A stretch of 64,000 nt of DNA. Source: Azospirillum baldaniorum. Lineage in GTDB: Bacteria; Pseudomonadota; Alphaproteobacteria; Azospirillales; Azospirillaceae. Made by a program: the position numbers and the translations under genes. The notes under the pieces are model-generated. The model ran no database searches. It saw nothing but the letters and a program-made list of their open reading frames with translations, and was not told where the DNA came from. The DNA is taken from contig NZ_CP022255.1 of assembly GCF_003119195.2 (NCBI RefSeq), positions 62,001 through 126,000 of the forward strand. The letters are read 5' to 3'. This document shows positions 2,421-45,741 of the stretch, piece by piece. The stretch's first letter is position 1; each line of letters opens with the position of its first letter.

Positions 2421-3023
2421 ATGAACGCACAGCCGTCCCAACATGGCAGAGATCGCGCGGAGAAGTCCGCAAGCCCACCAACCTACCCACCACCATCCCC
2501 CGGATTGAGTGCCGTGCTCGAACGGAACATTGATGCGCTGCACCAGCGCAGGGAACGGGAGGAGGTCGAGGCGACCGCCGAGGAGCGGATTGCCGACGCG
2601 ATCACCCGCTTCACCGGCAGCATGACGTTCGTTTATCTGCATTTGGCATTCTTTGGTTTTTGGATCGTCGCCAACCTGGGGTGGGTGCCCGGCGTTCCGC
2701 GCTGGGATCCCTCCTTCGTCGTTCTGGCGATGATTGCGTCCGTGGAGGCCATCTTTCTGTCCACCTTCGTGCTCATCAGCCAGAATCGGATGTCCGAGGT
2801 CGCCAGCAAGCGGGCTGATCTCGATCTGCAAATCAGCCTGTTGGCGGAGCACGAAATCACCAAACTGACGGCCCTGGTGTCGTCCATGGCCGATCACATG
2901 GGGGTGAAGACGGACGTTGACTCCGATCTGGACATCATCAAGCAGGATGTCGCCCCTGAAGCGGTGCTCGACCAGATCGAGGCCAAGAAGTCTCCGAAGA
3001 AGCCCACGGACCGGGAGCGGTGA
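2421..3023 (+). CDS. DUF1003 family membrane protein
   Basis: A 200-residue protein with a polar N-terminal 70 residues and two hydrophobic segments, about residues 72-90 (FVYLHLAFFGFWIVANLG) and 102-122 (VVLAMIASVEAIFLSTFVL). After them come QNRMSEVASKRADLDLQI and a helical tail. The order of two helices followed by QNRM and a coiled region is the hallmark of DUF1003. The function of the family is not established; members are inner-membrane proteins sometimes linked to stress or metal transport. The gene stands alone, facing the convergent glycosyltransferase operon 18 bases away. Confidence 0.85.
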   Translation: MNAQPSQHGRDRAEKSASPPTYPPPSPGLSAVLERNIDALHQRREREEVEATAEERIADAITRFTGSMTFVYLHLAFFGFWIVANLGWVPGVPRWDPSFVVLAMIASVEAIFLSTFVLISQNRMSEVASKRADLDLQISLLAEHEITKLTALVSSMADHMGVKTDVDSDLDIIKQDVAPEAVLDQIEAKKSPKKPTDRER

Positions 3024-3041: not shown

Positions 3042-4139
3042 TCATTGAAAGGGCAGTACCACACTGGTATTTTGGCTGGTCCGTCGCATCGCGCACTCCA
3101 GTTCCCGTTCCAACGTTTCCGCGCGATGCGCGGCGGTGTGGTGTTTCAGGATTCGCCGCCGCGCCCTTGCGCCCATCGCTTGGCGGGTGTTCTCGTCCAG
3201 TTGGTGAAGGGCGTGCAAAACGTCCTCGGACGTGTGGGCGAGGATGATCTCGCGGTTCGGCTCCAGCAGCGCGTCCAGGCCGTCCCAACAGTCGGAGATG
3301 ATCGGAGTGGCGCAGGCGGCGGCCTCGAACAGCCGGACGCTGGGGCTGTGGCCCGCGCGGATCATGTCCTCGCGCGTCACGTTCAAGGTGAAACGGCTGG
3401 CCGCATAGAAGGCAGGATGCTCGGCGGGAGGAACATGATGCCGACGTTCGACATTTCCGGGCCAGGCGATCCCGTCGGGGTATTGCGGACCGGCGACGAC
3501 GAAGCGCAGCGACGGCGCGCGCCGGGCCGGTTCCAGCAGCAACCGTTCCAGCGTCGGCTGCCGGTCGGGGCTGTAGGTGCCGAGATAGCTCAGATCCCAG
3601 CGCTTGGGCGCGGGCAGAGGCGCGTAGGCGCCGGCATCCACGGAGCAATGGAGCGCGCGCGCCGCCGGAGAGCCGTAGCGGGACTCCAGCCGCTCCAGCG
3701 TCGGTCCGCCCGTGAAGGAGAAATACACATCATAGCCGGGAATGAGGGCAGGGGAGAGATACTCCTCGTCGCCGCGTTCCAGCTTCGCCAGGGTCACCGG
3801 CGTGTCGATGTCGTAGAAGGCGACGATCCCCTGCGCGGCTTCCTGCGCCCAGCGGCCGACGGCGACGCCGTCGGGCACGTAGGAACCGACGAGCACCGCG
3901 TCGGCCTCCTCGACCATTCCGGCCCACCGCCGCAGGTCGGCAAGGTCCTCGTAGAAGGCCAGCCGGCAATAGCCGGGATCGGTGACATCGCGATTCTGCG
4001 CGTACCAGGGAACGTCGCGCTCCAGGAACAGGATGTCGTGGCCGCGTGCGGCGAACGCCTTGAGAAGGGCGCGGAAGGTGGTGGCGTGGCCGTTGCCCCA
4101 GGAGGAGGACAGGCTCAGCCCCAGGACGACGAGCTTCAC
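3042..4139 (-). CDS. CgeB-type glycosyltransferase 1
   Basis: Predicted 365-residue GT-B glycosyltransferase of the CgeB/DUF3880 family. The N-terminal half begins VKLVVLGLSLSSSWGNGHAT, a Rossmann strand followed by a glycine/asparagine loop. The C-terminal half has the donor-binding block HSPSVRLFEAAACATPIISD, then WDGLDALLEPNREIILA, as in other CgeB proteins. The GTG start at 4139 overlaps the stop of the upstream gene in a GTGA, with AGGAG about eight bases before it. It is the last gene of a six-gene leftward operon and one of three tandem paralogues. Donor and acceptor sugars cannot be told from sequence; the neighbours suggest an inositol-containing acceptor. Confidence 0.85.
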   Translation of the reverse strand: MKLVVLGLSLSSSWGNGHATTFRALLKAFAARGHDILFLERDVPWYAQNRDVTDPGYCRLAFYEDLADLRRWAGMVEEADAVLVGSYVPDGVAVGRWAQEAAQGIVAFYDIDTPVTLAKLERGDEEYLSPALIPGYDVYFSFTGGPTLERLESRYGSPAARALHCSVDAGAYAPLPAPKRWDLSYLGTYSPDRQPTLERLLLEPARRAPSLRFVVAGPQYPDGIAWPGNVERRHHVPPAEHPAFYAASRFTLNVTREDMIRAGHSPSVRLFEAAACATPIISDCWDGLDALLEPNREIILAHTSEDVLHALHQLDENTRQAMGARARRRILKHHTAAHRAETLERELECAMRRTSQNTSVVLPFQ

Positions 4140-5230
4140 GCCGCGCTCCTTTCCCGCCGGGCCGCCAGGGCTTCGCGCAGCAACACGTCGACCTCCGCGC
4201 CGCGCCGTGCGTAGGTGTGTTCCGCAAGGGTACGCCGCCGCGCAGCGTCGCCGATGGCGCGGGCGCGGGCCGGGGTGAGGGCGCGCAGATGATCGGTCAC
4301 GTCCTGGCCGTCGCGGGCGACGAGGATTTCCTCGTCCGGGGTGAGGAACAGTTCGACCCCCGTCCAAGCGTCGGTGATCAGGCAGGCCGCCGCTCCGGCA
4401 GCCTCGAACACCCGCGTGGCGGGCGAGAAGCCGACCTCGGCCATGCTGTCGCGGGCGATGTTCAGAACCGCCAGCGGCGAGCTGTTGAAGGCGTTGTGGT
4501 CGGCGGTGCCGACATGGCCGATGTGGGCGACGTTGGCCGGCAGCCCCTTCGTCTCCCAGCCGCTGCCGCCGATGATGTAACGGCCCTGCGGGTTGCGCGC
4601 GGCGGGCTCCAGGAAGAAGCGTTCCACCCGTTCCTCGCGGTCGGGCAGCCGGTTGCCGAGAAAGCTGAGATCGGCGGCGAAGCGCGGTTGGGGAGGTGCC
4701 GGCTGGTGCGTCGCCGGGTCCAGCGCGTTGTAGATGGGGCGGCACAGGCGGGCGCCCATCGCCTCGTAGGCCGCGACCACCGGCGGGCCGCCGCCGTAGG
4801 TCAGCACGGCGTCGATCCGCGGCAGCCGGCGGCGCAGGGGATGGTCCGGCGCCTGCCGAAGCTCGGCCAGGGTGGCGGGGGCGTCGACGTCCCAATAGAC
4901 ACGCAGGGCGTGGGAACCGGCGGCATCCATCACGCCGTCGAGCAACTCGTCGTCGAAGACGCCGACGCCGTTTGCCTTCACCACCACGTCGGCCTCGGCG
5001 GCGCGGGCGATCACGGTGCGGCAGGCCTCGGCGGTGGCCTCGTACACCACGACGCTGGCCCAGTCGGGCGGCTCGATGTCACGGTGCTTCTGGCGGTCGA
5101 AGGCGTCCGGTTCGTAGAAGGTGACGTCCCAGCCCCGCTTGGCGAGTTCGCTCAACATGCCGCGATAGTAGGTGGCGGCGCCATTCCAGTAGGAGGAAAG
5201 CAGGCTCGAACCGTAGAAGGCCATCTTCAT
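4136..5230 (-). CDS. CgeB-type glycosyltransferase 2
   Basis: A 364-residue paralogue of the flanking genes, starting MKMAFYGSSLLSSYWNGAATYYRG. It shares the SSYWNGAAT-type loop with its neighbours, the GT-B donor block FSPATRVFEAAGAAACLITD and the following WTGVELFLTPDEEILVA. No signal peptide or membrane segment is seen, so it should act in the cytoplasm. Start and stop overlap both neighbours by four bases (ATGA and GTGA), so the three paralogues are translated in series. They probably add successive residues to the same growing saccharide. Confidence 0.85.
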   Translation of the reverse strand: MKMAFYGSSLLSSYWNGAATYYRGMLSELAKRGWDVTFYEPDAFDRQKHRDIEPPDWASVVVYEATAEACRTVIARAAEADVVVKANGVGVFDDELLDGVMDAAGSHALRVYWDVDAPATLAELRQAPDHPLRRRLPRIDAVLTYGGGPPVVAAYEAMGARLCRPIYNALDPATHQPAPPQPRFAADLSFLGNRLPDREERVERFFLEPAARNPQGRYIIGGSGWETKGLPANVAHIGHVGTADHNAFNSSPLAVLNIARDSMAEVGFSPATRVFEAAGAAACLITDAWTGVELFLTPDEEILVARDGQDVTDHLRALTPARARAIGDAARRRTLAEHTYARRGAEVDVLLREALAARRERSAA

Positions 5231-6351
5231 CGGACAGGCTCCAGCATCGAAGAGGGGGTGGGCGTGCCAGCCAGAGCGGCGGCGATGGCGAGCAGCTCCC
5301 TGGTGCGGTGGGCGCAGGTGTGGCGGGTGCGGATCGTTTCCAGGCCGTTGCGGACCAACGCCGCGCGGAGGTCGGCGTCGCCGTCCACGGCGCGCAGATG
5401 GGCGGTCATATGGGCACCGTCGCGGGCGACCAGGAAATCCGTTCCCGGTCGGAACAGGCCTTCGCAATCGCTCCATGGCGCGCTGACCAGCGGGATGCCG
5501 CAGGCCAGCGCCTCGAACACGCGGATGGTCGGGATGCCTGGCAGGGATTCGACGTAGAAACGGCGCGGCACATGGACGGTGACCCGATGGCGGGCGAAGG
5601 TCGCGGGCACCCGGACGTTGGGCAGCCAGCCCTTGTAGGCGATGCCGTGCCGCTTCAGCGTCGCCAGGGCTTCGGCGGGGTAGCGCACGCCATAGACGTC
5701 CAGAGCCAGACCCGCGGCACGGGCGGGAGCGAACAGAAAGCTCCCCAGCTCCTTCGTCCGCTCGCCATCACCCCAATTGCCGATCCACACCGCTCCGCTG
5801 CGCCGCTCCTCCCCGGGCAGCGGGTGGAACAGCCGGACGTCGGCGGCTTCGTGCCAGACGAAGACGCGATCCTCCCAGCCCCAGCGCCGGTACACGGTGG
5901 CCAGAGTTTCGCCGAAGGCCAGGACGCCGTTGTAGCCGGAGAGATCGAAGGCGGAGATGGCCCCCGGATCACTGACCGCGCGATGGTGCGTGTCGTGGAA
6001 CAACAGGGAAAAGCGACCGCCCTGGGCCCGCGCCCGGCCCACCGCCGCGACCAGAGCCGGGTCGTTCCATTCATGGACGATGACCAGATCGGCCCCGTCG
6101 CACAGCGCCGCCGCGTCGGTATCGGTCGTGAAGGTCAGCGAGGTCAACTCCGGATAGGCGGTCCGGTAGGGCACCAGTCCCGCTTCGCCATGATCGGCCA
6201 GCAGGTTCCGCAGGCTCCATGCGCCATCCGGTTCAAGGACGCGGACCTCATGGCCGAGGATGATCAGCTCCCTGAGGACGCCGCGCAGGAAATGGGCGTT
6301 GCCGTGGTTCCAGCAGGACGCCAGCGAATGGGTGAAATAGACGATCCTCAC
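5227..6351 (-). CDS. CgeB-type glycosyltransferase 3
   Basis: A 374-residue protein starting VRIVYFTHSLASCWNHGNAHF, again the CgeB pattern. The donor block reads LPGIPTIRVFEALACGIPLVSA, then WSDCEGLFRPGTDFLVARDG. It is the most divergent of the three tandem CgeB genes and carries an extra FHDTHHRAVSD segment near the middle. The GTG start at 6351 overlaps the upstream stop as GTGA. The upstream in-frame extension to 6576 runs through the neighbouring gene and is not credible. It is presumed to be a cytosolic glycosyltransferase of the cluster. Confidence 0.85.
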   Translation of the reverse strand: MRIVYFTHSLASCWNHGNAHFLRGVLRELIILGHEVRVLEPDGAWSLRNLLADHGEAGLVPYRTAYPELTSLTFTTDTDAAALCDGADLVIVHEWNDPALVAAVGRARAQGGRFSLLFHDTHHRAVSDPGAISAFDLSGYNGVLAFGETLATVYRRWGWEDRVFVWHEAADVRLFHPLPGEERRSGAVWIGNWGDGERTKELGSFLFAPARAAGLALDVYGVRYPAEALATLKRHGIAYKGWLPNVRVPATFARHRVTVHVPRRFYVESLPGIPTIRVFEALACGIPLVSAPWSDCEGLFRPGTDFLVARDGAHMTAHLRAVDGDADLRAALVRNGLETIRTRHTCAHRTRELLAIAAALAGTPTPSSMLEPVR

Positions 6352-7502
6352 GCAACGGCCTCCTTGCGGGAGGGGGTGGAGGTGTGACGCGCCAGAACGC
6401 TGCGGTAGAGACCGCGCATGCCGGAGGCCATCGGCTCCATGCCGTATTGCCCGGCCTTGAGCCGCGCCGCCTCGCCGAGGCGCCCGGCCTCCCCCGGATC
6501 GTCCAGCAGGCGGCGGATCGTGGCGGCCAGGGCTGCGCTGTCCCTCGGTTCCACGAAGAGTGCGGCGCCGTCCCACAGCTCGCGGAAGGTCGCGATGTCC
6601 GACAGCACCAGCGCGCAGCCGGCCTGCGCGGCTTCAAGCACCGTCAGGCCGAACGGCTCGTAGAGCGCGGCGGACGCGAAGACCGGTGCCCGCGCCAGCC
6701 ACGCCGCGATCGACGCCGCATCCAGGCGCCCGAGCGTCGCGGCGTGACGCAGGGTCCGGTGATTCCCGCCCGGACCCTCCAGCGAGCCGGCGGCGACCAC
6801 CGGTGCCTCCAGCAGCGCCGCCGCCGCGTCCAGCGTTGCGATGTTCTTTCCATCGTCCCACAAGCGTCCGGCGGTGAAGACGAAACGCTCCCGTCCGCCC
6901 AGCCCCCCGCCCGGAGGAGGACGGCGTCCATTGCGCACCACGACCGGTGGCGGCAAACCGTAGGCGGCGGCGGTGGCCTGCGCGAAGGCGGTGCTCGGGG
7001 CTGCCAGCGCATCGCAGGCACGGTAGCCCCGCGCCAGAACCTCGATCCGCCAGAGGAAGTCGCCCGGCAGGGCGCCGCCGCGCAGGGTGGCCCACCACGT
7101 CGCCAGACAGGAATGGCAGACCCCCACGACCGGAACCGTGAAGCCGGCATCCGCCGCCAGGGCCGGGCTGTTGAGGTGGACGAGATCCACCCCCAACCGC
7201 CGAGCGAGCGTTCCCAGCGCTTCGGCGCCGCGCCGGATCGCGGCCGGGTCCTCCGCCATCCAGTCCAGCGGGAGGCCGGTGTCGATCAGTTCCAGGCCGG
7301 GGATGGCGCGCGCCGCCGCGGTCTGGTCATCCTGCGGTGACGGCCCAAGCACCGCCAGGGTAACGCGCAGGCCGCCTGCCGCCAGTTCCTGCGCGAGATC
7401 GAGCGCGTAGGTCCACACGCCACCCACGCTGTCCGCCGTCATCAACAGATGCGTGGGGACTGGATGCGCGGGGGCTGCCGGGGGCGTCACCGGCAACCGC
7501 AT
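6348..7502 (-). CDS. GT4-family glycosyltransferase
   Basis: A 384-residue GT-B enzyme of the glycosyl transferases group 1 type. Near the N-terminus it has MTADSVGGVWTYALDLAQEL, the glycine-rich acceptor-side loop. In the C-terminal half it has RFVFTAGRLWDDGKN (nucleotide-sugar site) and SAALYEPFGLTVLEAAQAGCA, the E-x7-E retaining-enzyme motif. It overlaps the radical SAM gene upstream by 16 bases and the CgeB gene downstream by four. It is the only GT4 member in the operon and may start the chain on inositol or inositol phosphate; that is inference from context. Confidence 0.9.
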   Translation of the reverse strand: MRLPVTPPAAPAHPVPTHLLMTADSVGGVWTYALDLAQELAAGGLRVTLAVLGPSPQDDQTAAARAIPGLELIDTGLPLDWMAEDPAAIRRGAEALGTLARRLGVDLVHLNSPALAADAGFTVPVVGVCHSCLATWWATLRGGALPGDFLWRIEVLARGYRACDALAAPSTAFAQATAAAYGLPPPVVVRNGRRPPPGGGLGGRERFVFTAGRLWDDGKNIATLDAAAALLEAPVVAAGSLEGPGGNHRTLRHAATLGRLDAASIAAWLARAPVFASAALYEPFGLTVLEAAQAGCALVLSDIATFRELWDGAALFVEPRDSAALAATIRRLLDDPGEAGRLGEAARLKAGQYGMEPMASGMRGLYRSVLARHTSTPSRKEAVA

Positions 7503-8797
7503 GCGGCCTCCAGCTCATGCAAGGGCAGGGGCTCCTCCGCCTGAATGTCGCTCAGTCGCGCGAACTGGCGCAGATAGTGCTCGTGCGCCCTTTCCCATGC
7601 CCGGTCGTCCGGTTCGCCCCACAGGCGGCGGTAATCGGGCGAGGCGGGGTAGGGGTAGAGCGGCACCGGATCGTTGGCCCAGACACCGGCACCGTGCAGC
7701 CTCTCCCGCCATCGCGCGACGAGCCCGGCGTCGTCGCCGGCCATGGCGATCAGGTTGGCCTGGACGAAGGGCACGCTGCGCCGGGCGTGGATCAGGCGGT
7801 CGGCCAGTGCGTCGGTGCTCATGCGGCAGTTCTTGTCGAGCGCTGCGCGACCCTCCTCGGTCAGGCTTTCCACCCCGGCCTCGATCGACACGCAGCCGGC
7901 GGCCCCCAGGAGATCCAGCAGATCGGGCTTCCACAAGTCGATGCGGGTCTGGATGCCGAACTCGACCGGACGCTCCACCAGCGCTTCCAACAGGTCGCGG
8001 CGGGGCAGGAAGATCTCGTCGATGAAATAGACGTAACGCACGCCGGCGGCGGTCAGCCGGTCGATCTCCTCCAGCACGACAGCGGTGTCGCGGCGGCGGT
8101 ACTGGTCGCGGAAGTCGATCTTGGCGCAGAAGGAACAGGTGTAGGGGCAACCGCGCGACGCCTCGACCTCGGCCCCCGCACCGAGCGGTTCGGTGCCGTA
8201 GCGGTGGTGATGGTGGGGGTGGCGGTTCAGCCATTCGGCGGGCCAGGACAGCGCTGGCAGATCGACGAAGCGGCCGGTGTGCGGGCCGCCGGTGAGGACT
8301 GTTCCGCCGCCGCTGCGGAAGGCCAGCGCCGGAACGTCGTCCAACCCTGGCTGGCCGGAATCCAGCCGGTCGGCAAGCTGTTTCACGACCTCCTCGCATT
8401 CGCCCCGCACGACGACGTCCAGGCCCAGCTTCTCCAGGGCTGCACCGGGGGTGGTCGATCCATGCGGACCCACCGCGACGGTCCGGCCGCCGCGTCCGTC
8501 CAGCGCCAGCAGGAAATCACGGGGAATGCGCAGCTCCGGCGGGGCGCAACGCCAGAACAGGTAGGTCGGCGCGGTCGTCACCACGGTCATGCCGGGCGCG
8601 AAGCCGGCCACCCGATCCGCCAGTTCGCTGTTCGACAATCCCGTCAACAGCCCATCGAGCAGCAGGACCTCATGTCCGGCCTGCTCCAGCAGCGCCTTGC
8701 CGTAGCCCAGTTCGAGGGGCAGATGCGGCTCGCGGCAGCCGAAATAGATGCTGTGCGCGAAGGTCCAGGCCGGATTGACCAACGCCACACGCATCAT
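7487..8797 (-). CDS. B12-binding domain radical SAM enzyme
   Basis: A 436-residue protein. Residues 1-180 form a Rossmann-like cobalamin-binding domain (MMRVALVNPAW, GHEVLLLDGL, VVTTAPTYLFW, VRGECEEVV). No DxHxxG loop is visible, as is common in this class. The radical SAM core carries CPYTCSFC with Cys217, Cys221 and Cys224 for the 4Fe-4S cluster, followed by YFIDEIFLPRRDLLEAL and SIEAGVESLTEEGR. Such enzymes often methylate unactivated carbon or phosphorus. GGAGG lies five bases before the first of two ATG codons. Within a glycosyltransferase operon it probably C-methylates or rearranges a sugar or cyclitol. I recall a TIGRFAM for rSAM proteins of a rhizobial twelve-gene cluster, but could not check membership. 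Confidence 0.9.
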   Translation of the reverse strand: MMRVALVNPAWTFAHSIYFGCREPHLPLELGYGKALLEQAGHEVLLLDGLLTGLSNSELADRVAGFAPGMTVVTTAPTYLFWRCAPPELRIPRDFLLALDGRGGRTVAVGPHGSTTPGAALEKLGLDVVVRGECEEVVKQLADRLDSGQPGLDDVPALAFRSGGGTVLTGGPHTGRFVDLPALSWPAEWLNRHPHHHHRYGTEPLGAGAEVEASRGCPYTCSFCAKIDFRDQYRRRDTAVVLEEIDRLTAAGVRYVYFIDEIFLPRRDLLEALVERPVEFGIQTRIDLWKPDLLDLLGAAGCVSIEAGVESLTEEGRAALDKNCRMSTDALADRLIHARRSVPFVQANLIAMAGDDAGLVARWRERLHGAGVWANDPVPLYPYPASPDYRRLWGEPDDRAWERAHEHYLRQFARLSDIQAEEPLPLHELEAACGCR

Positions 8798-8831
8798 GTC
8801 GCCTCCACCAAGGCCGGTCCGGACCGGCGGT

Positions 8832-9944
8832 TCATGCCACCAGCCCCCGCGCTTCGAGTTCGCCCCGGGCCTCGGCGACGTGGTCCTGCGCCTCATGCCG
8901 GGCAACCCATTCGGCGAGTTCGGCCAGCCCTTCGGCGAAATCCTGCCGCGCTTCGTAGTTCAGGACTGTCCGCGCCCTGCCCAGGTCGGGGATGTTGTGG
9001 CGGATGTCGCCAGCGCGCGCTTGGCCGGTGATGTCCGGAGCCAGGTCGGACCGGCCCATCGAGGCGGCCTGGAGCCGCGCCACCTCCTCCACGGTGCGGT
9101 CCTCGCCGGACCCGACGTTGAACACCTCACCGTTGGCGGTCGGCTGGTCGAGCGCCAGCAGGAACGCGCGTGCCACGTCGCCGACATGCACGAAGTCGCG
9201 CCGCTGTTGGCCATCCTCGAAGATCATCGGCCGTTGACCGTTGGCGATGCGCGAGGCGAAGATCGCCAGCACCCCGGTGTAGGGGTTCGACAGCGCCTGC
9301 CCGGGGCCGTAGACGTTCCACAGCCGCAACGCCGCCCCTTCCATCCCGTACTGCGCGGTAAGCGTCAGGGTCAGCCGCTCCTGCACGTATTTGCCGATGG
9401 CGTACACGGACCTGAGGGCCGGGCGCTTGCTCTCGGGCGTGGGGACGGGGATCAGCGGCCGTCCATCGTAATCGAGCGGGTCCCAGGAGCCGTCCGGGTT
9501 GCGCGGGCCGCGCACCACATCCTCCATCGGCGTGCCGTCGGCGGTCCGGTACAGCCCTTCGCCGTAGATGCTCATCGAGGAGGCGACCACCACCCGGCGG
9601 ACCGGTCGGTCGATCAACCGCTGGAACAGCACGGCCGTCCCGTGGTCGTTCACCGAGGTGTAGCGGTCCACCGCGTACATGCTCTGGCCGACACCGACCT
9701 CGGCGGCGAGGTGGATCACGGAGTCCATACCCTCCAGCGCCCGAGCGACCATGGCCTCGTCGCGTATGTCCCCGATCAGCAACTCGATGTCCGGGCCCAG
9801 TTCATCGGGCCGCGTCCGGGTGGGATGGACCTGCGCGATCAGACTGTCGAGAACCCGAACCCGGTCGCCGCGGGCGAGAAGTGCCCTGGCGACGTGGCGG
9901 CCGATGAAGCCGGCGCCACCGGTGACAAGAACGGATTCTCCCAC
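8832..9944 (-). CDS. NAD-dependent sugar epimerase/dehydratase (extended SDR)
   Basis: A 370-residue extended short-chain dehydrogenase. The NAD fold starts at once with VLVTGGAGFIGRHV (G9, G12, G15), then DIRDEAMVARAL and HLAAEVGVGQS. The active site has SSMSIYGEG and the YAIGK catalytic Tyr/Lys pair. RLWNVYGPGQ and the C-terminal substrate domain follow, as in UDP-glucose 4-epimerases and related nucleotide-sugar enzymes. I chose GTG at 9944, preceded by CGGAGGGG; the ATG at 10022 would add a leader rich in Lys, Asn and His inside the AT-rich control region. It is the first gene of the leftward arm and probably supplies an activated sugar to the four glycosyltransferases. Confidence 0.88.
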   Translation of the reverse strand: MGESVLVTGGAGFIGRHVARALLARGDRVRVLDSLIAQVHPTRTRPDELGPDIELLIGDIRDEAMVARALEGMDSVIHLAAEVGVGQSMYAVDRYTSVNDHGTAVLFQRLIDRPVRRVVVASSMSIYGEGLYRTADGTPMEDVVRGPRNPDGSWDPLDYDGRPLIPVPTPESKRPALRSVYAIGKYVQERLTLTLTAQYGMEGAALRLWNVYGPGQALSNPYTGVLAIFASRIANGQRPMIFEDGQQRRDFVHVGDVARAFLLALDQPTANGEVFNVGSGEDRTVEEVARLQAASMGRSDLAPDITGQARAGDIRHNIPDLGRARTVLNYEARQDFAEGLAELAEWVARHEAQDHVAEARGELEARGLVA

Positions 9945-10256
9945 GAGCCCCTCCGCTGATGGACGGTGATGTTTATGGCAGCCATTTTTGGTTGTGTTGT
10001 TTATGCATAAAGTTATCGGCAATCGTCGCGGTTCTTGTTTGCAAAGAAATACAGCTTTTCACTTACATGCGTGAGAAACCGCTGTGTTCGCTTCGTGAAA
10101 AGAAGCGCGATCACATCAATGTTAACATCGCTTTTGGACTTTCGACACCTTACCCAAAAGGCGTGGTCAGATTGGACGATCTTCCATCAATTATTTTTCC
10201 AAGATACAAATACCATTCCGGTCCATTAAGGAAATTTTCAGAACGAGGAGAATTTC
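9945..10256. promoter_or_regulatory. AT-rich divergent control region of the glycan cluster
   Basis: This 312-base gap separates the two divergent arms of the cluster. It is far richer in A and T than any coding DNA around it, with runs such as TTGTTGTTTATGCATAAAG and CAATTATTTTTCC. No credible gene lies in it. A small hairpin, CGCTTC with GAAGCG seven bases later, is present near 10087-10105. The region must hold both promoters; I could not settle on a -35/-10 pair. GAGGAG at 10245-10250 is the ribosome site of the inositol phosphate synthase gene. Confidence 0.6.
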
Positions 10257-11360
10257 GTGACTGGGAAAAAGCTGCGGGTGGCGATTGCCGGTGTTGGAAA
10301 TTGCGCTTCATCCTTCGTGCAAGGTGTAAGCTATTATGCCGATGCTCACGCTAATGAGCCGCCGCCCGGGCTGATGACGCTCGATCTCGGTGGCTATCGG
10401 GTCAGCGACATCGAAATGTCCGCCGCCTTCGACGTAAGCGCCGCCAAGGTCGGGCGGGACTTGTCCGACGCCATCTTTGCCCCTCCGAACAACACGTGCC
10501 GCTTCGCAAGCCCGCGTGCTTCGGGAGTGCAAGTGGAGCGCGGTCCGACACTGGACGGCATCGGCCGCTATTTGGCCGATGACATTGAGGAGTCGGGGGA
10601 GGCGCCGGTTGCCATCGCCGAGTCTCTGCGCCGCTCAGGCACCGATATCCTGGTGTCTTACCTGCCGGTCGGTTCGCAGCGGGCCACGGAGTTCTATGCC
10701 GAGCAGGCGCTGGAGGCCGGCTGCGCCTTCGTCAACTGCATCCCGGTCTTCATAGCCTCCGACCCAAGCTGGGCGAAGCGGTTCGAGCGACGCGGCCTGC
10801 CGGTCATCGGCGACGACATCAAGAGCCAGATGGGTGCCACCATCATCCACCGCACGCTGGCAAACCTGTTCCGCGAGCGCGGCGTCCGGCTCGACCACAC
10901 CTATCAGCTGAACTTCGGCGGCAACACCGACTTCAAGAACATGCTGGAACGCGAACGCCTGGAATCGAAGAAGATTTCGAAAACCCGCGCCGTCACCAGC
11001 CAATTGGACGTGCCGCTCGACGCGGACGACGTCCATATTGGCCCCAGCGATCATGTCCCCTGGCTGGCCGACCGGAAATGGGCGCACATCCGGCTGGAGG
11101 GCACCGCCTTCGGGGGCGTGCCCTTGAGCGTGGAGCTGAAGCTGGAGGTCTGGGACAGCCCGAACTCCGCCGGCATCGTGATCGACGCGGTGCGCTGCGC
11201 CAAGCTGGCGCTCGACCGGAAGATGGCCGGGCCACTGATCGGACCGTCGAGCTACTTCATGAAATCGCCTCCCGAGCAGTTCACCGACCATGAAGCGCGC
11301 GAGCGCACGCTGCGCTTCATCGCCGGCGAGGCGGCGGACGGCCCGCGCTTCCGGGCGTGA
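10257..11360 (+). CDS. ino1: Inositol-3-phosphate synthase
   Basis: A 367-residue enzyme of the myo-inositol-1-phosphate synthase family, which turns glucose 6-phosphate into inositol 3-phosphate with bound NAD. Key features are [15 protein letters not shown] at residues 10-24 (NAD fold), [15 protein letters not shown], and [20 protein letters not shown] with the catalytic lysines. Length and motifs match the short actinobacterial/archaeal type, such as the mycobacterial enzyme, rather than the roughly 530-residue eukaryotic form. The GTG start has GAGGAG six bases upstream. It opens the rightward arm and overlaps the next gene by four bases. Its product is the likely core of the saccharide made by the cluster. 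Confidence 0.95.
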
Positions 11361-11965
11361 GCGGCGGCGTGGAAACGATCCTGGTCCTGCTGCGTCACGC
11401 GTCGCATGACCGGCTGGGCTCCGTGTTGTGTGGACGCATGCCCGGCGTGACGCTCAGCGAGGCCGGCCGACGCGAGGCCGACGCGCTGGCCGTCACATTG
11501 GTGTGTCACCGGTTCGCGGCCGTGCTGTCCAGCCCGTTGGAGCGCGCGGTGGAAACGGCGGCCGCCATCGCCGCGTCACAGGCCTTGGCCGTGGAGGTGG
11601 AGGAGGATCTCAACGAACTCGATCTCGGTGCCTGGGCCGGCATGCGCTTCGAGGACCTGCGCGGCGACCCGGCTTGGAATGTGTGGAACAGCGCGCGGTC
11701 GCACGCCCGCCCGCCTGGGGGCGAAACGATGCTGGAGGCCCAGGCCCGGATGACGCGCTGCATCGAGCGGTTGCGCCGCCGGTACGCTGGCCGGACCGTC
11801 GCGCTGGTCAGCCACGCCGACGTCATCAAGGCGGCGCTGTCCCACGCCTTGGGGCTTTCCGTGGATTTCCACGCCCGGTTCGAGATCGCTCCGGCGTCCC
11901 GCAGCGTGCTGATCGCCGGGGAATGGGGCCTGAAGGTCCACAGCATCAACGAGGCGGCGGAATGA
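11357..11965 (+). CDS. Histidine phosphatase family protein
   Basis: A 202-residue phosphoglycerate-mutase-like phosphatase. The catalytic RHA (LLRHASH, His14) is at the N-terminus, [15 protein letters not shown] follows, [11 protein letters not shown] supplies the acid region, and [10 protein letters not shown] supplies the second histidine. Relatives include cobalamin ribazole-phosphate phosphatase and sugar-phosphate phosphatases. The GTG start overlaps the inositol phosphate synthase stop as GTGA, so the two are coupled. The cluster has no classical inositol monophosphatase, so this protein may release free inositol or dephosphorylate a later intermediate; that is inference. Confidence 0.88.
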
Positions 11966-12801
11966 CGAATCTGACGACCGACCAAATCCGCGCCCGGGTC
12001 GCCGCGCTGGGGGACTGGTTCCACAACATCGATCTGAACGGCGTCAGCACCGCCCCCGACCACTTCCTGCACGATTACCCGAACGTGAAATGGCGACGGT
12101 TCGCCCATGCGGTCCCGCAGGATCTGAGCGGCCTGACGGTGCTCGACATCGGCTGCAACGGCGGCTTCTACTCCATCGAGATGAAGCGGCGCGGCGCCGA
12201 GCGGGTGGTCGGGATCGACTTTGACGATCGTTATCTCGCACAGGCGCGCTTCGCCGCCGAAGTGACCGGCCAGGATATCGAATTCCGCAAGCTGTCGGTT
12301 TACGATCTGGCGCGGCTGGGGGAGCGGTTCGACGTCGTCTTGTTCATGGGGGTGCTTTACCATCTGCGCCACCCGCTGCTGGCTCTCGACCTGATCCACG
12401 AGCATGCCGCCCGTGATCTGATGATCTTCCAATCGATGCAGCGCGGCTCCGAGACGGTCGAACCGGTGGGCACCGATTACGACTTCCGTCAGCAGGACCA
12501 TTTCAACGCGCCCGGCTATCCGAAGCTGCATTTCATCGAACACCAGTATTCCGGCGACTGGACGAACTGGTGGGTCCCGAACGCCGCCTGCGCCGAAGCC
12601 ATGCTGCGCAGCGCCGGCTTTCGGATCGTCGAGCATCCGGAGCAGGAGGTCTATGTCTGCCGCCGCGCTCCACGGCCGACCGAGGCGGGCGCCGTCTATC
12701 CCGCCCGGCCACCCACCGCCGCACCATCCGCCGCACCATCCGCCGCACCATCCGCCGGACGGGCACCGGCAAACCACGTCAGGACGGGAAGCCAGGGATG
12801 A
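11962..12801 (+). CDS. SAM-dependent methyltransferase with repetitive C-terminal tail
   Basis: A 279-residue class I methyltransferase. SAM motif I is VLDIGCNGGFYSIEM, motif II is VVGIDFDDRYLAQAR, and motif IV is FDVVLFMGVLYHLRHPLLALD. The C-terminal half has NWWVPNAACAEAMLRSAGF, seen in tRNA cmoB-like and natural-product enzymes. After about residue 237 the protein ends in an Ala/Pro/Ser tail made by a 12-base tandem repeat (AAPS three times). Start and stop overlap both neighbours by four bases. Its form fits a family I recall as Rta_06860-type methyltransferases of a sporadic sugar cluster, unverified. The likely substrate is the growing saccharide. Confidence 0.88.
   Translation: MTNLTTDQIRARVAALGDWFHNIDLNGVSTAPDHFLHDYPNVKWRRFAHAVPQDLSGLTVLDIGCNGGFYSIEMKRRGAERVVGIDFDDRYLAQARFAAEVTGQDIEFRKLSVYDLARLGERFDVVLFMGVLYHLRHPLLALDLIHEHAARDLMIFQSMQRGSETVEPVGTDYDFRQQDHFNAPGYPKLHFIEHQYSGDWTNWWVPNAACAEAMLRSAGFRIVEHPEQEVYVCRRAPRPTEAGAVYPARPPTAAPSAAPSAAPSAGRAPANHVRTGSQG
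12717..12752 (+). repeat. 12-bp tandem repeat, three units, in frame
   Basis: CGCCGCACCATC occurs three times head to tail, then a partial unit. Because 12 is a multiple of three, copy-number change would lengthen or shorten the AAPS linker at the end of the methyltransferase without breaking the frame. Confidence 0.95.
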
Positions 12802-13724
12802 TCGAAGCCGCCAAGATCTGGAACGAGCCCAACAACAAGTCCCACTGGAATCCCGATCTCGATCCGGAATGGGATCTGTTCGCCCGCATGACGATCCTGT
12901 CCGGACAGGCGATCCGGGCGGAGAATGGCGCGCTCACGCGCGTGTTGGGCGGCATCTCGCCCATCGATCCCTCCTTCATCCGACGTCTGGACGAACGCGG
13001 CGCTCTGGACCATGTGGACGTGGTTGCGGTGCATGGCTTTCCGCTCGACTGGAATCTCTGGCAGATCCACGAATGGCCGGACAAGATCGAGGAGATTCGC
13101 GCCGTCACCGGCAAGCCGGTCTGGGTGACGGAGGCCGGCGTTTCGTCCTTCGGCGCCGAGGAGGTGCAGGCCTGGGGCGTCACCCGCACCGCGGAGCTGC
13201 TGATCGGCCGGGTTCCACGCATTCACTGGTACAGCCTCTACGATCTGCCCAGCGCTTGGGAGGCGACGACGCGCCACAAGGAGGCGGAGGGCTCCTCCTA
13301 CTACCGTCATTTCCATATGGGGCTTCTGCGGGCGGACGGCACGCCCAAGCCGGCGCTCGACGCCTACGCGCCCTATGCGGCCGAGATGGGGATTTGCCAA
13401 TGGTTCCACTTCGAGGATCACCGGCTGGACGAGGCGGTGGCCTGGATGAAGCGGTTGGGTGTCCGGCACCTGCGCACCGGCCTGTCCTGGGCCGACAGCT
13501 TCCGGCCGAACGCGCTCGCCTGGTTCGACCGTCAGATGGAAGCGCTGGCCGATTTCGATGTCACCATAACTTTCTGCTTCACGCCCGAGCATCGTGGAAT
13601 CGAACCACACCACACCAGCCCGCCCCAGGTCGCCGAGGAGTTCGCGGATTTTTGCGCCGCCATGGTCCGCCGCTACGCCAGCACCGCTCCGGCCGCGCCG
13701 TTCCCCCTGCTGGCGATGGGATAG
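12798..13724 (+). CDS. Clan GH-A glycoside-hydrolase-like protein, apparent permuted barrel
   Basis: A 308-residue TIM-barrel protein resembling beta-xylosidases. It begins almost directly with IWNEPNN (Glu10, the acid/base found at the end of strand 4 in clan GH-A). VDVVAVHGFPLDW, PVWVTEAGVSS (Glu112, nucleophile position of strand 7) and IHWYSLYDLP (strand 8) follow. Segments that read like strands 1-3 (LGVRHLRTGLSWADSF, VTITFCFTPEHRG) come after these, at residues 219-263. This order suggests a circularly permuted barrel. There is no signal peptide, so it should be cytoplasmic. ATG overlaps the methyltransferase stop as ATGA. It may trim or transfer glycosyl groups in the pathway. Confidence 0.8.
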   Translation: MIEAAKIWNEPNNKSHWNPDLDPEWDLFARMTILSGQAIRAENGALTRVLGGISPIDPSFIRRLDERGALDHVDVVAVHGFPLDWNLWQIHEWPDKIEEIRAVTGKPVWVTEAGVSSFGAEEVQAWGVTRTAELLIGRVPRIHWYSLYDLPSAWEATTRHKEAEGSSYYRHFHMGLLRADGTPKPALDAYAPYAAEMGICQWFHFEDHRLDEAVAWMKRLGVRHLRTGLSWADSFRPNALAWFDRQMEALADFDVTITFCFTPEHRGIEPHHTSPPQVAEEFADFCAAMVRRYASTAPAAPFPLLAMG

Positions 13725-13768
13725 GAGGCGGTAGGCCAAGACACTTCGCCGCGCGGAGCGGTTGAACC

Positions 13769-15523
13769 ATGCTGGTTTACGGCGATCGCGACCGTCTCGA
13801 GAACCCGTGCGTCGCCGTGGCGCGGATCGCCGCCGCCCATCGTACAGCCGCCGCCAAGCCTGACGGGCTGATCCGTCATGCCATGCTGGTGTCCTTGTTC
13901 ATCGAGGCGGCGGAGCTTGCGCAGGGCCTCGCCGATGCGGAATTCGCGGCGCTGGGGGAGGACGATTGCACCCCATGCCGCGATGCGGCGATGGCGGTCG
14001 TGATGGGGCTGGCCCGCGCCGTCGCCCGGTCCTGGCGCGGCGAGCCGCAGCCGGGCGCTTGCGCGCTGGCGGCTGACCTGGAAACGTTGTCGGCGCAACC
14101 CTTGCCCGAAACCGTGCGAATACGCCGATCCGAAGGCTATGCCTTCTATGGCCTCTATCCGGAAGCCTATCTGGAGGCTGCGGCCCGGCTTCCGCCGGAC
14201 CTGCCCGCTCCGCTCGTCGTGATTGGCCTGCGCAGCATCGGAACCGGACTGGCGGCGATGGCGGCGGTTGCGCTGGACGCAGCGCCTCCGGTCACTCTGC
14301 GTCCGATCGGTCATCCGTTCCAACGCGCCGTCCGCCTGTCGGCTCGCCTGCGGGCCGCCCTGCTGGCCGACGCGGGCGCGTCCTATGTGATCGTCGATGA
14401 AGGGCCGGGCCTGTCCGGCAGTTCGTTCGGCGCCGTCGCCGATTGGTTGGAGGCGGCGGGCGTGCCGTCCCGGCGGATCGCGTTCCTTCCCAGCCATAAG
14501 GGCGATCCGGGACCGCGCTCCTCCGACCGGCACCGCCGCCGCTGGGCCGAGGCGGTGCGCCCGGTGATCGACTTCAATGAACTGGTGCACGCTGCGCATG
14601 GCCCGGTGCCGCCGTTGGAGCGCTGGTTCGAGGACACGCTCGGCCCTGCGGTCGCACCGTTGCGTGATCTGTCGGGTGGCGCATGGCGGACGGCATCGGC
14701 GGAATTGGCGGCGAATGTTGCGGCGGACTGGCTGCCGGTCCATGCGCAGCAGGAACGCCGCAAGTTCCTGCTGCGCACTGCCTCCGGCTCCTGGCTTTTG
14801 AAGTTCGCCGGCCTCGGACGCCTGGGCGAGGCCAAGCTGGACCGGGCCCGCGCGTTGCATCAGGCGGGTTTCACGACGAAACCCATGGCACTCCGTCATG
14901 GCTTCCTGGCGGAGCGCTGGTTGGACGGCGCGCAACTGCCCTCCACCATGCCTCTGGAGCGCTTGGCCGACTATCTCCTGTTCCGCGCCCAACGCTTTCC
15001 GGCGGAGCGTGACACGGGCGCCAGCCTTCCGGACCTGTTGGCGATGGCGCATGTGAACATCGGCGAAGCGCTTGGCGCCGCCGCGACCGTCCCCTTGGAT
15101 CGCTGGACGCGGGACATCCTGAGTGAGCTGGACGCCGGGGTCCGGCGCGTCGTCACCGACAACCGCCTTCACATCTGGGAGTGGCTGCGCACCACCGACG
15201 GCCGGGTGCTGAAGACCGACTCGCTCGATCACGCCGACGCGCATGACCTGATCGGTTGCCAGGACATTGCTTGGGACGTGGCGGGGGCCATCGTCGAATT
15301 CGGCCTTGCGGAGGCGGAAGCCGACCGGCTCTGCGACGCAGTGGGCGCTTCAAAGCGGCTGGTGGCCTTCCATCTTCCCTGCTATCTCGCCTTCCAGATC
15401 GGCTGCTGGTCATTCGCCTCCTCCGATGCGGGAGCGGCGTCCATGCGCCGCTTCTACGAGGAGGCTTGGAAACGGCAAGCGAGCCGTGGTGGGCGCTTCC
15501 CACCTCCCGCCGGCACATCATAA
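13769..15523 (+). CDS. Phosphoribosyltransferase-like / kinase-like fusion protein
   Basis: A 584-residue protein I do not recognise by name. After a helical N-terminus, residues 150-162 (VVIGLRSIGTGLA) and 206-219 (YVIVDEGPGLSGSS) resemble the pyrophosphate loop and the PRPP loop of type I phosphoribosyltransferases. From about residue 330 the protein resembles an aminoglycoside-phosphotransferase-like kinase. It has WLLKFAGLGRLGEAK (N-lobe lysine), FLAERWLDG (hinge), then DHADAHDLIG and DIAWDVAGA, which resemble the catalytic HxD loop and the metal-binding Asp. It is the last gene of the rightward arm, 44 bases after its neighbour. Both activities are inference from motifs; the substrates are unknown. 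Confidence 0.75.
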   Translation: MLVYGDRDRLENPCVAVARIAAAHRTAAAKPDGLIRHAMLVSLFIEAAELAQGLADAEFAALGEDDCTPCRDAAMAVVMGLARAVARSWRGEPQPGACALAADLETLSAQPLPETVRIRRSEGYAFYGLYPEAYLEAAARLPPDLPAPLVVIGLRSIGTGLAAMAAVALDAAPPVTLRPIGHPFQRAVRLSARLRAALLADAGASYVIVDEGPGLSGSSFGAVADWLEAAGVPSRRIAFLPSHKGDPGPRSSDRHRRRWAEAVRPVIDFNELVHAAHGPVPPLERWFEDTLGPAVAPLRDLSGGAWRTASAELAANVAADWLPVHAQQERRKFLLRTASGSWLLKFAGLGRLGEAKLDRARALHQAGFTTKPMALRHGFLAERWLDGAQLPSTMPLERLADYLLFRAQRFPAERDTGASLPDLLAMAHVNIGEALGAAATVPLDRWTRDILSELDAGVRRVVTDNRLHIWEWLRTTDGRVLKTDSLDHADAHDLIGCQDIAWDVAGAIVEFGLAEAEADRLCDAVGASKRLVAFHLPCYLAFQIGCWSFASSDAGAASMRRFYEEAWKRQASRGGRFPPPAGTS

Positions 15524-15623: not shown

Positions 15624-16706
15624 TTACTGGCCTTCTGCCGTCTCGTCACTGTGCGCCGGACTGATCACGAGCAACAGGTCTCCGGGCTGGATGATATGGC
15701 GGTGGCGTTCCGTGAAGGGAATGGCGCGGCCATTGCTGTGGATCTGCACGATCACGCCGACGGTTGCCTCCGCCATGGTCTTGCCGACTTCGTCCCGGGC
15801 CGCCGGGCGCTCCGTCAGCACCATTTGGCCACCCACCGACATCAGGTCGCACAGGAAGGGTGTCGCATGGCTGGTTTCCACGGCATCGGCCATGAGATAG
15901 CCACCGATCCTGGGCGGCGACACCACCAGGTCGGCGCCGCTCAGCTTGGCCAGCTTGATGTTCTCCTCCTGCTTGATGTTGCCGACGATCTTGGTGTCGG
16001 CGGACAGATGGCGGACGGTCAGGATCACCAGAATGGTGGTGTCGTCCCGGCCCGAGCTGACGATCACCGCCTTGGCGCTTCCCACGCAGGCCCGGGTCAG
16101 CATCTCTTCGCTGGTGGCGTCGCCGAGCAACCCGATGAACCCCGCCTCGGCCGCCAGCCGGATGCGTTCCTTCGACTGGTCGATCACGACGATCCGTTCG
16201 CCCGGATGTCCCTTGGCGACCGTCTCCTGCGCGGCGATGAACCCACTGTGACCAAAGCCGCACAGCACGATATGCCCCTGCAGATGCTTCTGAATTCGGC
16301 TCATTCGGAAATCCTCGATGATCCGCTGCACAACGAATTCGTAGGCGGTGCCCAGGAAGATGAACCATATGAAGATGCGGATGGGCGTGACCGCGAAGGC
16401 GTCGATCAGCCGCGCCGTGTGGCTGACCGGAACGATGTCGCCGTAACCCACGGTGGTGACGGTGATCATCGCGAAATAGAGGATGTCAGGGAAGCTGACG
16501 TGGCCGTCGATCTGGTCCTTCAGGCCATCGCGGTCGAACCAGAACACCGCGATGACCAGGGCGATCAGGACGACGACGAGCCCGACACGAAGGGCGAGCG
16601 TCTGTTCCGCCGACATCCCGGAGCGGACATGAAGAACCCGGCCCCGCCGGGGCGCCGACTTGATCCGCCACGTCTCGTTGCCATTGCGCTCGCCAAGCTT
16701 CGGCAT
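15624..16706 (-). CDS. Potassium channel with RCK domains
   Basis: A 360-residue two-helix potassium channel. The first helix is at residues 38-57, the selectivity filter TVGYGD at 85-90 and the second helix at about 102-121. A cytosolic RCK/TrkA-N domain follows, with HIVLCGFGHSGFIAAQE as its nucleotide fold and VIDQSKERIRLAAEAG, then a TrkA-C-like end (IQPGDLLLVI). Such channels gate potassium flow in response to nucleotides or ions bound to RCK. I chose ATG at 16706 over a GTG at 16727. It converges on the glycan cluster and appears unrelated to it. Confidence 0.92.
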   Translation of the reverse strand: MPKLGERNGNETWRIKSAPRRGRVLHVRSGMSAEQTLALRVGLVVVLIALVIAVFWFDRDGLKDQIDGHVSFPDILYFAMITVTTVGYGDIVPVSHTARLIDAFAVTPIRIFIWFIFLGTAYEFVVQRIIEDFRMSRIQKHLQGHIVLCGFGHSGFIAAQETVAKGHPGERIVVIDQSKERIRLAAEAGFIGLLGDATSEEMLTRACVGSAKAVIVSSGRDDTTILVILTVRHLSADTKIVGNIKQEENIKLAKLSGADLVVSPPRIGGYLMADAVETSHATPFLCDLMSVGGQMVLTERPAARDEVGKTMAEATVGVIVQIHSNGRAIPFTERHRHIIQPGDLLLVISPAHSDETAEGQ

Positions 16707-16795
16707 GGGCCATCCATCGAATGACACTCCCGGCCATCATAACGGGGATCGCCGCGTGTCGCTCCACAAGGTGGCCATGTGGAGCGACTGTCCGC

Positions 16796-45609: not shown

Positions 45610-45654
45610 GATGGCCTTCCCAGCGGGCGGCATGGAGTTTGGCGTGGAGTTTGG

Positions 45655-45741
45655 ATGCAAGGCCCCCTCCGTCCCCCACGGTGCGGGGGACGGTTGGTCG
45701 TGGACGGCGTCCCCCGCGACGCGGGGGAGAGGGCGGGGCCG
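45655..45741. repeat. GC-rich palindromic element between adaptor and RND genes
   Basis: The element contains CCCCCAC...GTGCGGGGGA-type and CCCCCGCGACGCGGGGG hairpins. It is similar in style to the repeats at 29811 and 49030 and lies in the 132-base gap between the two pump genes. Confidence 0.65.

Follow-up and report, generated by a model that had tools for sequence, protein, structure and literature searches.

Which product is made by the eleven genes that lie in two divergent arms (3042-9944 on the minus strand and 10257-15523 on the plus strand) of the Azospirillum baldaniorum DNA analysed here, a stretch of 64,000 nucleotides referred to below as the window, and do the two arms serve a single pathway? 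A sequence-only reading had placed an eleven-gene divergent cluster for an inositol-containing, methylated saccharide at 3042..15523; both the cluster and its gene inventory were confirmed at that place, the named parts being recovered by profile (TIGR04295, TIGR04290, PF13524 and others).

3042..4139, minus strand: GTa, PF13524 glycosyltransferase (PF13524, 141 bits)
4136..5230, minus strand: GTb, PF13524 glycosyltransferase, used as core-arm marker (PF13524, 130 bits)
5227..6351, minus strand: GTc, PF13524 glycosyltransferase (PF13524, 120 bits)
6348..7502, minus strand: GT4-type glycosyltransferase (PF13439, 67.7 bits; PF13692, 58.2 bits; PF00534, 52.5 bits)
7487..8794, minus strand: rSAM, B12-binding-type radical SAM protein, TIGR04295 (702.8 bits, curated cut-off 400)
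8832..9944, minus strand: EPI, NAD-dependent NDP-sugar epimerase/dehydratase, head of the minus arm (PF01370, 173 bits)
9945..10256, no strand: divergent promoter region; blocks on its plus-arm side are conserved in 17 Azospirillum-type loci and the window, and the window has no EcfG motif
10257..11360, plus strand: INO, inositol-3-phosphate synthase, head of the plus arm (PF01658, Inos-1-P_synth, 123 bits)
11357..11965, plus strand: PHOS, histidine phosphatase, branch 1 (PF00300, His_Phos_1, 155 bits)
11962..12801, plus strand: MT, SAM methyltransferase, TIGR04290 (388.1 bits, curated cut-off 300)
12798..13724, plus strand: GH, circularly permuted GH39/PslG-like TIM barrel (profile match, strand order, invariant Glu10 and Glu112)
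13769..15523, plus strand: PRK, putative PRTase-like N-terminal part (by motif) and choline-kinase/APH-fold C-terminal part (by fold)

Proteins of the cluster

The genes within each arm are tightly packed, with the four-base overlaps described earlier at six of the nine within-arm junctions; at the other three, GT4 and rSAM overlap by 16 bases and the two remaining gene pairs are separated by 37 and 44 bases. The sporadic NCBI families to which the sequence-only reading had pointed are real, since both TIGR04295 (B12_rSAM_oligo) and TIGR04290 (meth_Rta_06860) are exceeded at their curated cut-offs, whereas the label 'rhizo-twelve' was found in no database record obtained and nowhere in the literature searched. 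Both NCBIfam entries are 'hypothetical equivalog' models with no stated function, neither covers the two-arm pathway, the promoters or the permuted enzyme described below, and neither accession was found in the literature searched.

In the minus arm, GTa had no match among PDB sequences at E<=0.01, and the best PDB relatives of EPI are epimerase/dehydratase SDRs, including UDP-glucose 4-epimerases. Four transferases would also suit a surface glycan. The rSAM protein is likely a tailoring C-methylase, judged from its family; the cysteines of its radical SAM CxxxCxxC motif (216, 220 and 223) are invariant in 14 of 14 sequences, and the B12-binding family PF02310 scored 25.4 bits, below its cut-off of 32.1. 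In the plus arm, INO reached 530.4 bits against the mycothiol-type inositol-3-phosphate synthase model TIGR03450, short of the equivalog cut-off of 638; PHOS exceeded the cut-off of no NCBIfam family; and the PDB relatives of MT were weak (a methyltransferase-region match named ToxA protein, 52.7 bits; CmoB, 43-48 bits; EvdMO1, 40.8 bits). An inositol-3-phosphate synthase, a GT4 transferase and a phosphatase together resemble the starting steps of mycothiol (Ino1, MshA, phosphatase). The differences are that INO lies below the mycothiol-type cut-off, that GT4 matches the MshA model at 29.5 bits (E 3.5e-07) against an equivalog cut-off of 462.5, and that none of the eleven was recognised as a later mycothiol enzyme.

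PRK gave no match to Pfam or to PDB sequences. Its residues 268-578 match the choline kinase/APH fold, for which the catalytic motif is HxDxxxxN; in an alignment read by eye no such stretch stands at the aligned place in PRK, and Asp464 and Asp484 are invariant. The putative PRTase half was assigned solely from the motif VDEGPGLSGSS, in which the PRPP-loop-like DEGPGLSGSS is invariant.

The GH-like protein is a circularly permuted GH39/PslG-like barrel, its chain ends having been swapped in evolution. In GH39 and clan GH-A the Glu of NEP is the acid/base and a second Glu the nucleophile; both catalytic-type residues (Glu10 and Glu112) are invariant in 35 of 35 sequences, and in the structural model the NEP Glu stands right after strand 1 and the second Glu at strand 4, an arrangement that departs from the canonical barrel strand order. 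The half holding both glutamates matches PslG (sequence profile, 28.7 bits, E 7e-06), and for the other half there is a weak match (17.7 bits, E 0.016) to a beta-glucosidase, in its N-terminal half. An ordinary-order version exists in eight genomes without free GH, where it forms the N-terminus of a CDP-tyvelose-2-epimerase-like protein (EPI2), and the GH profile matches this version in one piece only after rotation.

Two arms of one pathway

Across 82 genomes of the same family, GTb and the glycosidase-like protein (free or fused) were both present in 39 (37 with the free permuted form and two with the fused form) and both missing in 43. This complete co-occurrence speaks for one pathway, supporting the cohesion proposed earlier for the two arms, and TIGR04290 was present in 38 of the 39 GTb genomes. 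The arms are unlinked in 18 of the 39 pathway genomes, all among the 37 with GTb and free GH, and thus stand apart in fewer than half of these, where separation in most genomes had been set beforehand as refuting. The gene order of the window is repeated in related loci of several families, except where loci are cut by contig ends, and the arrangement is therefore not chance; the closest named loci are those of Azospirillum, and homologues of the TIGR04295 and TIGR04290 proteins lie close together in many relatives. The two arms are thus one pathway, widespread yet uncharacterised, to which the B12 radical SAM gene is dispensable, being missing in four of the 39 family genomes that keep the pathway.

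Relatives carry genes that the window's cluster does not: EPI2, a fourth PF13524-like transferase, a nucleotidyltransferase and a UDP-xylose synthase (UXS). The EPI2 of one relative scored 260.6 bits against the CDP-tyvelose 2-epimerase 9rl0. On pSymB of Sinorhizobium meliloti 1021 (~242-258 kb) and p42b of Rhizobium etli CFN 42 (55.6-64.9 kb) the core order is EPI-EPI2-GT4-GTc-GTb-GTa, together with UXS and MT; both stretches differ from the window in lacking rSAM, in the additional EPI2 and UXS, and in having EcfG motifs upstream of the heads. The S. meliloti locus also has PRK, INO, PHOS and the permuted GH, as in the window, whereas in R. etli GH is of the fused type and the examined stretch lacks INO. 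INO is likewise absent from the ~20-kb loci of all eight fused-type relatives, which means that inositol may not be the acceptor everywhere, and from the whole genome in both fused-type genomes checked (G044 and G075). Six family genomes without the pathway carry an inositol synthase of their own (~51-57% identical). The inositol-containing product of the sequence-only reading was accordingly not established.

EcfG-type promoters in relatives

The motif GGAAC-N16-18-GTT was searched upstream of the operon heads EPI and INO; the published EcfG consensus is GGAAC-N16-CGTT for R. etli (PMC3892343) and GGAAC-N17-20-GTT for S. melonis (PMC6599016). An EcfG motif alone is no proof of regulation. Of 197 distinct regions upstream of head genes, 97 held the motif, whereas 400 permuted motifs occurred in 2.2 on average and in 18 at most; in reverse orientation it occurred in 34 of the 197, and upstream of operon-internal genes the top rate was 7/121 (GTc), with four genes at zero. 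It preceded INO in 18/18 unlinked inositol arms and EPI in 15/15 unlinked core arms examined (11/11, and a further 4/4 without rSAM), and stood upstream of both heads in 14/14 Mesorhizobium loci (some being one genome drawn twice) and on S. meliloti 1021 pSymB. Methylobacteriaceae (EPI 3/22, INO 0/14) and Acetobacteraceae (EPI 2/10, INO 3/10) were mostly without it, and fused-type Azospirillaceae core arms had none (0/2).

No strict motif was present upstream of either head in the window or in 17 linked-arm Azospirillum loci, and the Methylobacterium consensus gave 0/18 in the same set. With one mismatch allowed, matches appeared upstream of INO in 10/18 and of EPI in 4/18 linked-arm loci, the window's own heads having none; because internal genes (~2 to 18%) and PRK (16/34) gave similar rates, these matches are indistinguishable from noise. 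From these motifs, many related bacteria appear to switch the pathway on with the general stress response, and EcfG-type promoters on both operons in many lineages make it likely that the product belongs to that response. The operons of the window's lineage are arranged head to head and have no recognisable EcfG promoter; that the window itself is under stress control is something we infer.

The product and its place in the stress response

We give roughly even weight to the reading that one conserved alphaproteobacterial pathway leads to a soluble, methylated hetero-oligosaccharide, probably built on an inositol acceptor, cytoplasmic and stress-linked. Judged from the enzyme families, INO would turn glucose 6-phosphate into inositol phosphate and PHOS would take off a phosphate. 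GT4 and the three PF13524 transferases could then attach sugars from NDP-sugars shaped by EPI and, in relatives, also by the CDP-tyvelose-2-epimerase-like enzyme and UDP-xylose synthase; the CmoB-like MT and the B12 radical SAM enzyme would carry out O- and C-methylation. Having both catalytic-type glutamates, the permuted GH39-like enzyme might act in trimming or transglycosylation, and the PRTase/kinase fusion may add, then phosphorylate, a ribosyl unit. Within the general stress response the product would most simply be a protectant.

A surface polysaccharide (capsule, exopolysaccharide or lipopolysaccharide side chain), built or decorated under stress control with flippases encoded elsewhere, is unlikely. 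Four glycosyltransferases with NDP-sugar epimerases would suit it, as would PslG, the nearest sequence relative of GH, which belongs to the Psl exopolysaccharide system. Profile searches of the window's eleven genes, however, recognised no polymerase, flippase, initiating transferase or exporter, and clustering (above 30% identity) of unassigned ORFs of at least 110 aa around 120 loci gave no family present in more than 14; the earlier statement that no export genes are visible holds for the eleven. By Kyte-Doolittle analysis (19-residue window) ten of the eleven proteins never exceed 1.53 and have no TM-like stretch, PRK peaking at 1.84 internally, and a hydrophobic N-terminus, as an exported polysaccharide hydrolase would have, is absent from GH. 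In S. melonis some of the genes for glycosyltransferases and exopolysaccharide are EcfG-dependent (PMC6599016), which may also favour a surface glycan.

A secreted or signalling secondary metabolite, such as an aminoglycoside- or orthosomycin-like pseudo-oligosaccharide, is less probable still. It would account for the inositol synthase, the B12 radical SAM protein, the distant relation of MT to EvdMO1 and the sporadic distribution of TIGR04295 (14/385 genomes of the class), and the PRTase with a phosphatase is reminiscent of BtrL/BtrP of butirosin; but neither an aminotransferase nor an export gene was recognised among the eleven, and a house role is the better fit for a pathway conserved, with stress-type promoters, in several families. 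A glycolipid head group or protein glycosylation, to which the next-best families of rSAM (BchE, 90 bits; HpnR, 63 bits) and the CgeB-like PF13524 transferases might point, is improbable, since none of the eleven was recognised as an acyltransferase or a lipid-linked enzyme, nor do the 120 loci widely share a gene family that could be the target.

Returning to the soluble oligosaccharide, we tentatively propose, with somewhat less than even confidence, that Alphaproteobacteria make a new class of methylated inositol-linked oligosaccharide as a dedicated EcfG output. The pathway would have two interchangeable forms, one in which an NDP-hexose 2-epimerase carries the GH39-like domain by fusion and the locus lacks inositol synthase, the other with the free permuted enzyme, inositol synthase and phosphatase, and the window would hold a reduced variant with head-to-head operons, its standard stress promoter lost.

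New here are the arms as one pathway, the stress promoters in relatives, the permuted GH and the dispensable rSAM. Many targets of the alphaproteobacterial general stress response have no assigned use, and one biosynthetic pathway, roughly a dozen genes long and found in model symbionts such as S. meliloti 1021 (pSymB) and R. etli CFN 42 (p42b), is here tied to that response. A clan GH-A-like barrel that has been circularly permuted in nature, while exchangeable clusters keep its ordinary-order form, is a clean case for how such rearrangement arises, and rSAM, present in some operons and absent from others that are otherwise alike, provides a natural pair for finding its substrate.

The cluster and its conserved core

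Coordinates and profile scores confirmed the sequence-only reading of this region as eleven genes in two divergent arms, with overlapping genes and the protein families it had named. The cluster and the neighbouring features are as follows.

3042 to 15523, core arm on the minus strand and inositol arm on the plus strand: eleven-gene cluster, two divergent arms, 312 bases between arms
2421 to 3023, plus strand: DUF1003 protein, flanking the cluster
15624 to 16727, minus strand: TrkA-domain ion channel, flanking the cluster
16796 to 20101, minus strand: Mfd-like transcription-repair coupling helicase with TRCF, CarD and DEAD domains
42424 to 45660, minus strand: RND efflux permease (NF000282, 1489 bits, above cut-off), with no relation to the cluster

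The window sits on contig C3 of a 7.68 Mb genome in 7 contigs; a DUF1003 gene was also found near the S. meliloti ABS7 locus. Four-base overlaps occur at 6 of the 9 junctions inside the arms. The B12-type radical SAM protein (rSAM) scored 702.8 bits against TIGR04295 (cut-off 400) and the methyltransferase (MT) 388.1 bits against TIGR04290 (cut-off 300), both of which are curated NCBI families with no function given. The inositol-3-phosphate synthase (INO, head of the inositol arm) was clearly assigned by Pfam (123 bits) and fell below the mycothiol-type equivalog cut-off (530 vs 638), while PDB sequence searches with the PRTase/kinase-like fusion (PRK) and with the glycosyltransferase GTa returned no match. 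Among the best 80 of 385 confirmed named loci, the closest were from Azospirillum, with radical SAM protein identities of 95 and 94%.

Comparison of 120 loci with a TIGR04295 homologue (40 from genomes and the best 80 of 385 confirmed named ones) repeatedly revealed the core order EPI-EPI2-rSAM-GT4-GTc-GTb-GTa, headed by the epimerase gene EPI, in Azospirillum, Methylobacterium/Methylorubrum, Mesorhizobium, Acetobacteraceae, Inquilinus, Caulobacteraceae and others. The EPI2 of relatives is CDP-tyvelose-2-epimerase-like (260.6 bits) and is absent from the cluster of the window and its nearest relatives. Some loci hold in addition a UDP-glucuronate decarboxylase (UDP-xylose synthase; 363 bits), a fourth PF13524-like transferase or a nucleotidyltransferase (NT). 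A different replicon of the window's genome carries a 56% relative of the missing EPI2 (locus L176, G000:C5:816500-836400), together with a UDP-xylose-synthase relative and several SDRs; this gene is at most a possible stand-in, its surroundings resembling a separate saccharide cluster, and L176 is probably a second such cluster of this genome.

Two components vary among relatives. The PRTase/kinase-like gene, present in 22 of 82 Azospirillaceae genomes, 21 of them GTb-positive (the remaining one, G030, has a short partial match only), is an optional part of the pathway. The radical SAM step is likely to be a tailoring reaction, judging from gene content: four family genomes with GTb and the GH-like gene (G001, G053, G065 and G077) had no TIGR04295 match above cut-off, their core operons reading EPI-EPI2-GT4-GTc-GTb-GTa with zero rSAM matches, and the gene is also missing from the class genome G403 and from the S. 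meliloti and R. etli loci. At the G403 locus (L180), a cluster without the radical SAM gene, the inositol synthase lies downstream of the GH gene.

A permuted barrel and its fused counterpart

Profile alignments and a structure model show the GH-like protein to be a circularly permuted barrel. It begins with MIEAAKIWNEPNN, and its C-terminal helix is the one that directly precedes that motif in the ordinary form; the model is a complete barrel (pLDDT 82, pTM 0.85). Profile searches aligned residues 3-165 with residues 132-302 of PslG (28.7 bits), and a weak match paired residues 207-296 with residues 55-154 of a beta-glucosidase (17.7 bits); the two halves therefore stand in swapped order. In eight relatives a homologous domain of ordinary order is N-terminal on EPI2. 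Against seven of the ordinary-order forms, the permuted-family profile scored 92-110 bits in its native order (best single match) and 144-184 bits when rotated to start at residue 190, with the peak at or near 190. The catalytic-type glutamates were invariant in 35/35 permuted proteins and their motifs were present in the seven ordinary-order ones. A fold search with the model returned assorted barrels, and GH39 was absent among the matches listed, a result that is neutral either way.

The 47 TIGR04295-positive genomes compared (35 in the family and 12 further in the class sample) comprised 8 with an intact fusion and no free GH gene, 38 with a free GH gene and one, G151, that was undecidable because it has no free GH gene, is 82% complete and has EPI2 at a contig end. 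An intact fusion was found in 0/24 free-GH genomes whose core locus was read, the window's included, vs 8/8 in the fused group (Fisher p 9.5e-08, kinship ignored); for the other 14 free-GH genomes the evidence is that just one GH hit per genome was listed at E<=1e-20, a limit near which fused forms score. Three loci (L036-L038, from G080, G081 and G079, with a free GH gene elsewhere) carry a diverged GH-like remnant before EPI2 (30-34 bits), which was left out of the intact fusions; rotation of the profile made no real difference to the L038 remnant (35 vs 34 bits). As far as seen, the free and fused forms are mutually exclusive.

The inositol synthase accompanies the free GH form: it is absent from all eight fused-type loci and genome-wide from G044 and G075, the two of the eight searched whole. 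R. etli CFN 42 p42b likewise has the fused form. Next to its locus, at 8771-12370 of L187, lie genes for a nucleotidyltransferase, a Gfo/Idh/MocA oxidoreductase and a zinc-binding dehydrogenase, all three pointing away from EPI, and several genes there are flanked by the EcfG motifs described below; these neighbours may substitute for inositol synthesis.

Co-occurrence of the two arms

The two arms are one pathway. Among the 82 family genomes, GTb was found in 39, TIGR04290 in 38, the free GH gene in 37 and TIGR04295 above cut-off in 35; the GTb set consists of all 37 free-GH genomes together with G044 and G075, which have a fused GH, and the other 43 have neither GTb nor GH. This holds although the arms are unlinked (on different contigs or >200 kb apart) in 18 of the 37 and adjacent in 19, in one of these across both ends of its contig. 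The inositol synthase occurs in 43 of the 82, namely the same 37 and six genomes without the pathway, whose proteins show about 51-57% identity and include some fragments. Among PLSDB plasmids, GTb was found in 148 records and a GH-like match in 147, with equal numbers in Sinorhizobium (66), Rhizobium (48), Roseomonas (10), Azospirillum (5) and Paracoccus (5), the comparison being of counts per genus and not of record against record.

Promoter motifs and overall account

The motif GGAAC-N16-18-GTT precedes operon heads in many loci and matches the EcfG promoter type, published for R. etli as GGAAC-N16-CGTT (PMC3892343), for S. melonis as GGAAC-N17-20-GTT (PMC6599016) and for M. extorquens as GAAC-N16,17-C/GGTT (PMC4814048). 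Distinct upstream regions were counted because one genome can occur in both locus sets, which include the best 80 of 385 named loci; matches starting past query residue 30, stretches <150 bases and EPI identities <50% were left out.

Distinct upstream regions with the motif (PHOS, phosphatase; GT, glycosyltransferase; the GTd row is mostly GTa counted again)
Heads: EPI 51/108; INO 46/89
Internal, none: rSAM 0/114; GT4 0/113; PHOS 0/80; MT 0/78; PRK 0/32
Internal, rare: GTa 1/119; GTb 1/115; GH 2/84; GTc 7/121
Further rows: GTd 2/117; NT 1/29

The heads together had the motif in 97/197 regions, whereas 400 permuted motifs averaged 2.2 and reached at most 18. It also occurred in reverse orientation in 34/197 head regions, which we read as the region common to divergent neighbours. 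Unlinked Azospirillaceae had it in 11/11 core arms and 18/18 inositol arms, Mesorhizobium in 14/14 at both heads, Inquilinus in 2/2, and the rSAM-less core operons in 4/4, 56-189 bases upstream of EPI; in S. meliloti 1021 it lies ~65 bases upstream of EPI and of INO. Counts at the two heads were 3/22 and 0/14 in Methylobacteriaceae, 2/10 and 3/10 in Acetobacteraceae, 1/3 and 1/3 in Caulobacteraceae and 18/32 and 10/18 in other lineages, with 0/2 in fused-type Azospirillaceae core arms and 0/17 at each head of linked-arm Azospirillum loci.

Upstream of the window's own heads neither the strict EcfG motif nor the Methylobacterium consensus was found, and allowing one mismatch gave no hit there. 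The one-mismatch form also matches internal control genes (e.g. GTb 22/119) and linked-arm INO regions (10/18) and was therefore not used as a test. The profile PF22029 (PhyR_sigma2), which may also match related sigma factors, was found in 82/82 family genomes at E<=0.001 (above cut-off in 78, the window's included), and the regulator family is therefore present. Since the motif is present in some lineages and absent from the window, stress control of the pathway is well supported by promoter sequence in the former and unproved in the window's cluster. Directly upstream of INO (9945-10256), blocks around TTAACA, CCAAAAG, GATCTTCC and TACAAATAT are kept in linked-arm Azospirillum without the EcfG motif, and are a candidate site for another regulator, or a candidate leader; no RNA element reached the gathering score in the window.

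In the literature accessible to the search, judged by titles and the opening parts of abstracts, neither the pathway nor its regulation nor the permutation was described; these genes may already be named in a published list of RpoE2 or EcfG targets, of the kind given in supplementary tables. Protein families and promoters together point to the chemistry of the pathway and to a protective role, and the best-supported account is of a cytoplasmic pathway to a methylated, probably inositol-linked hetero-oligosaccharide, which would belong to the general stress response of many Alphaproteobacteria.
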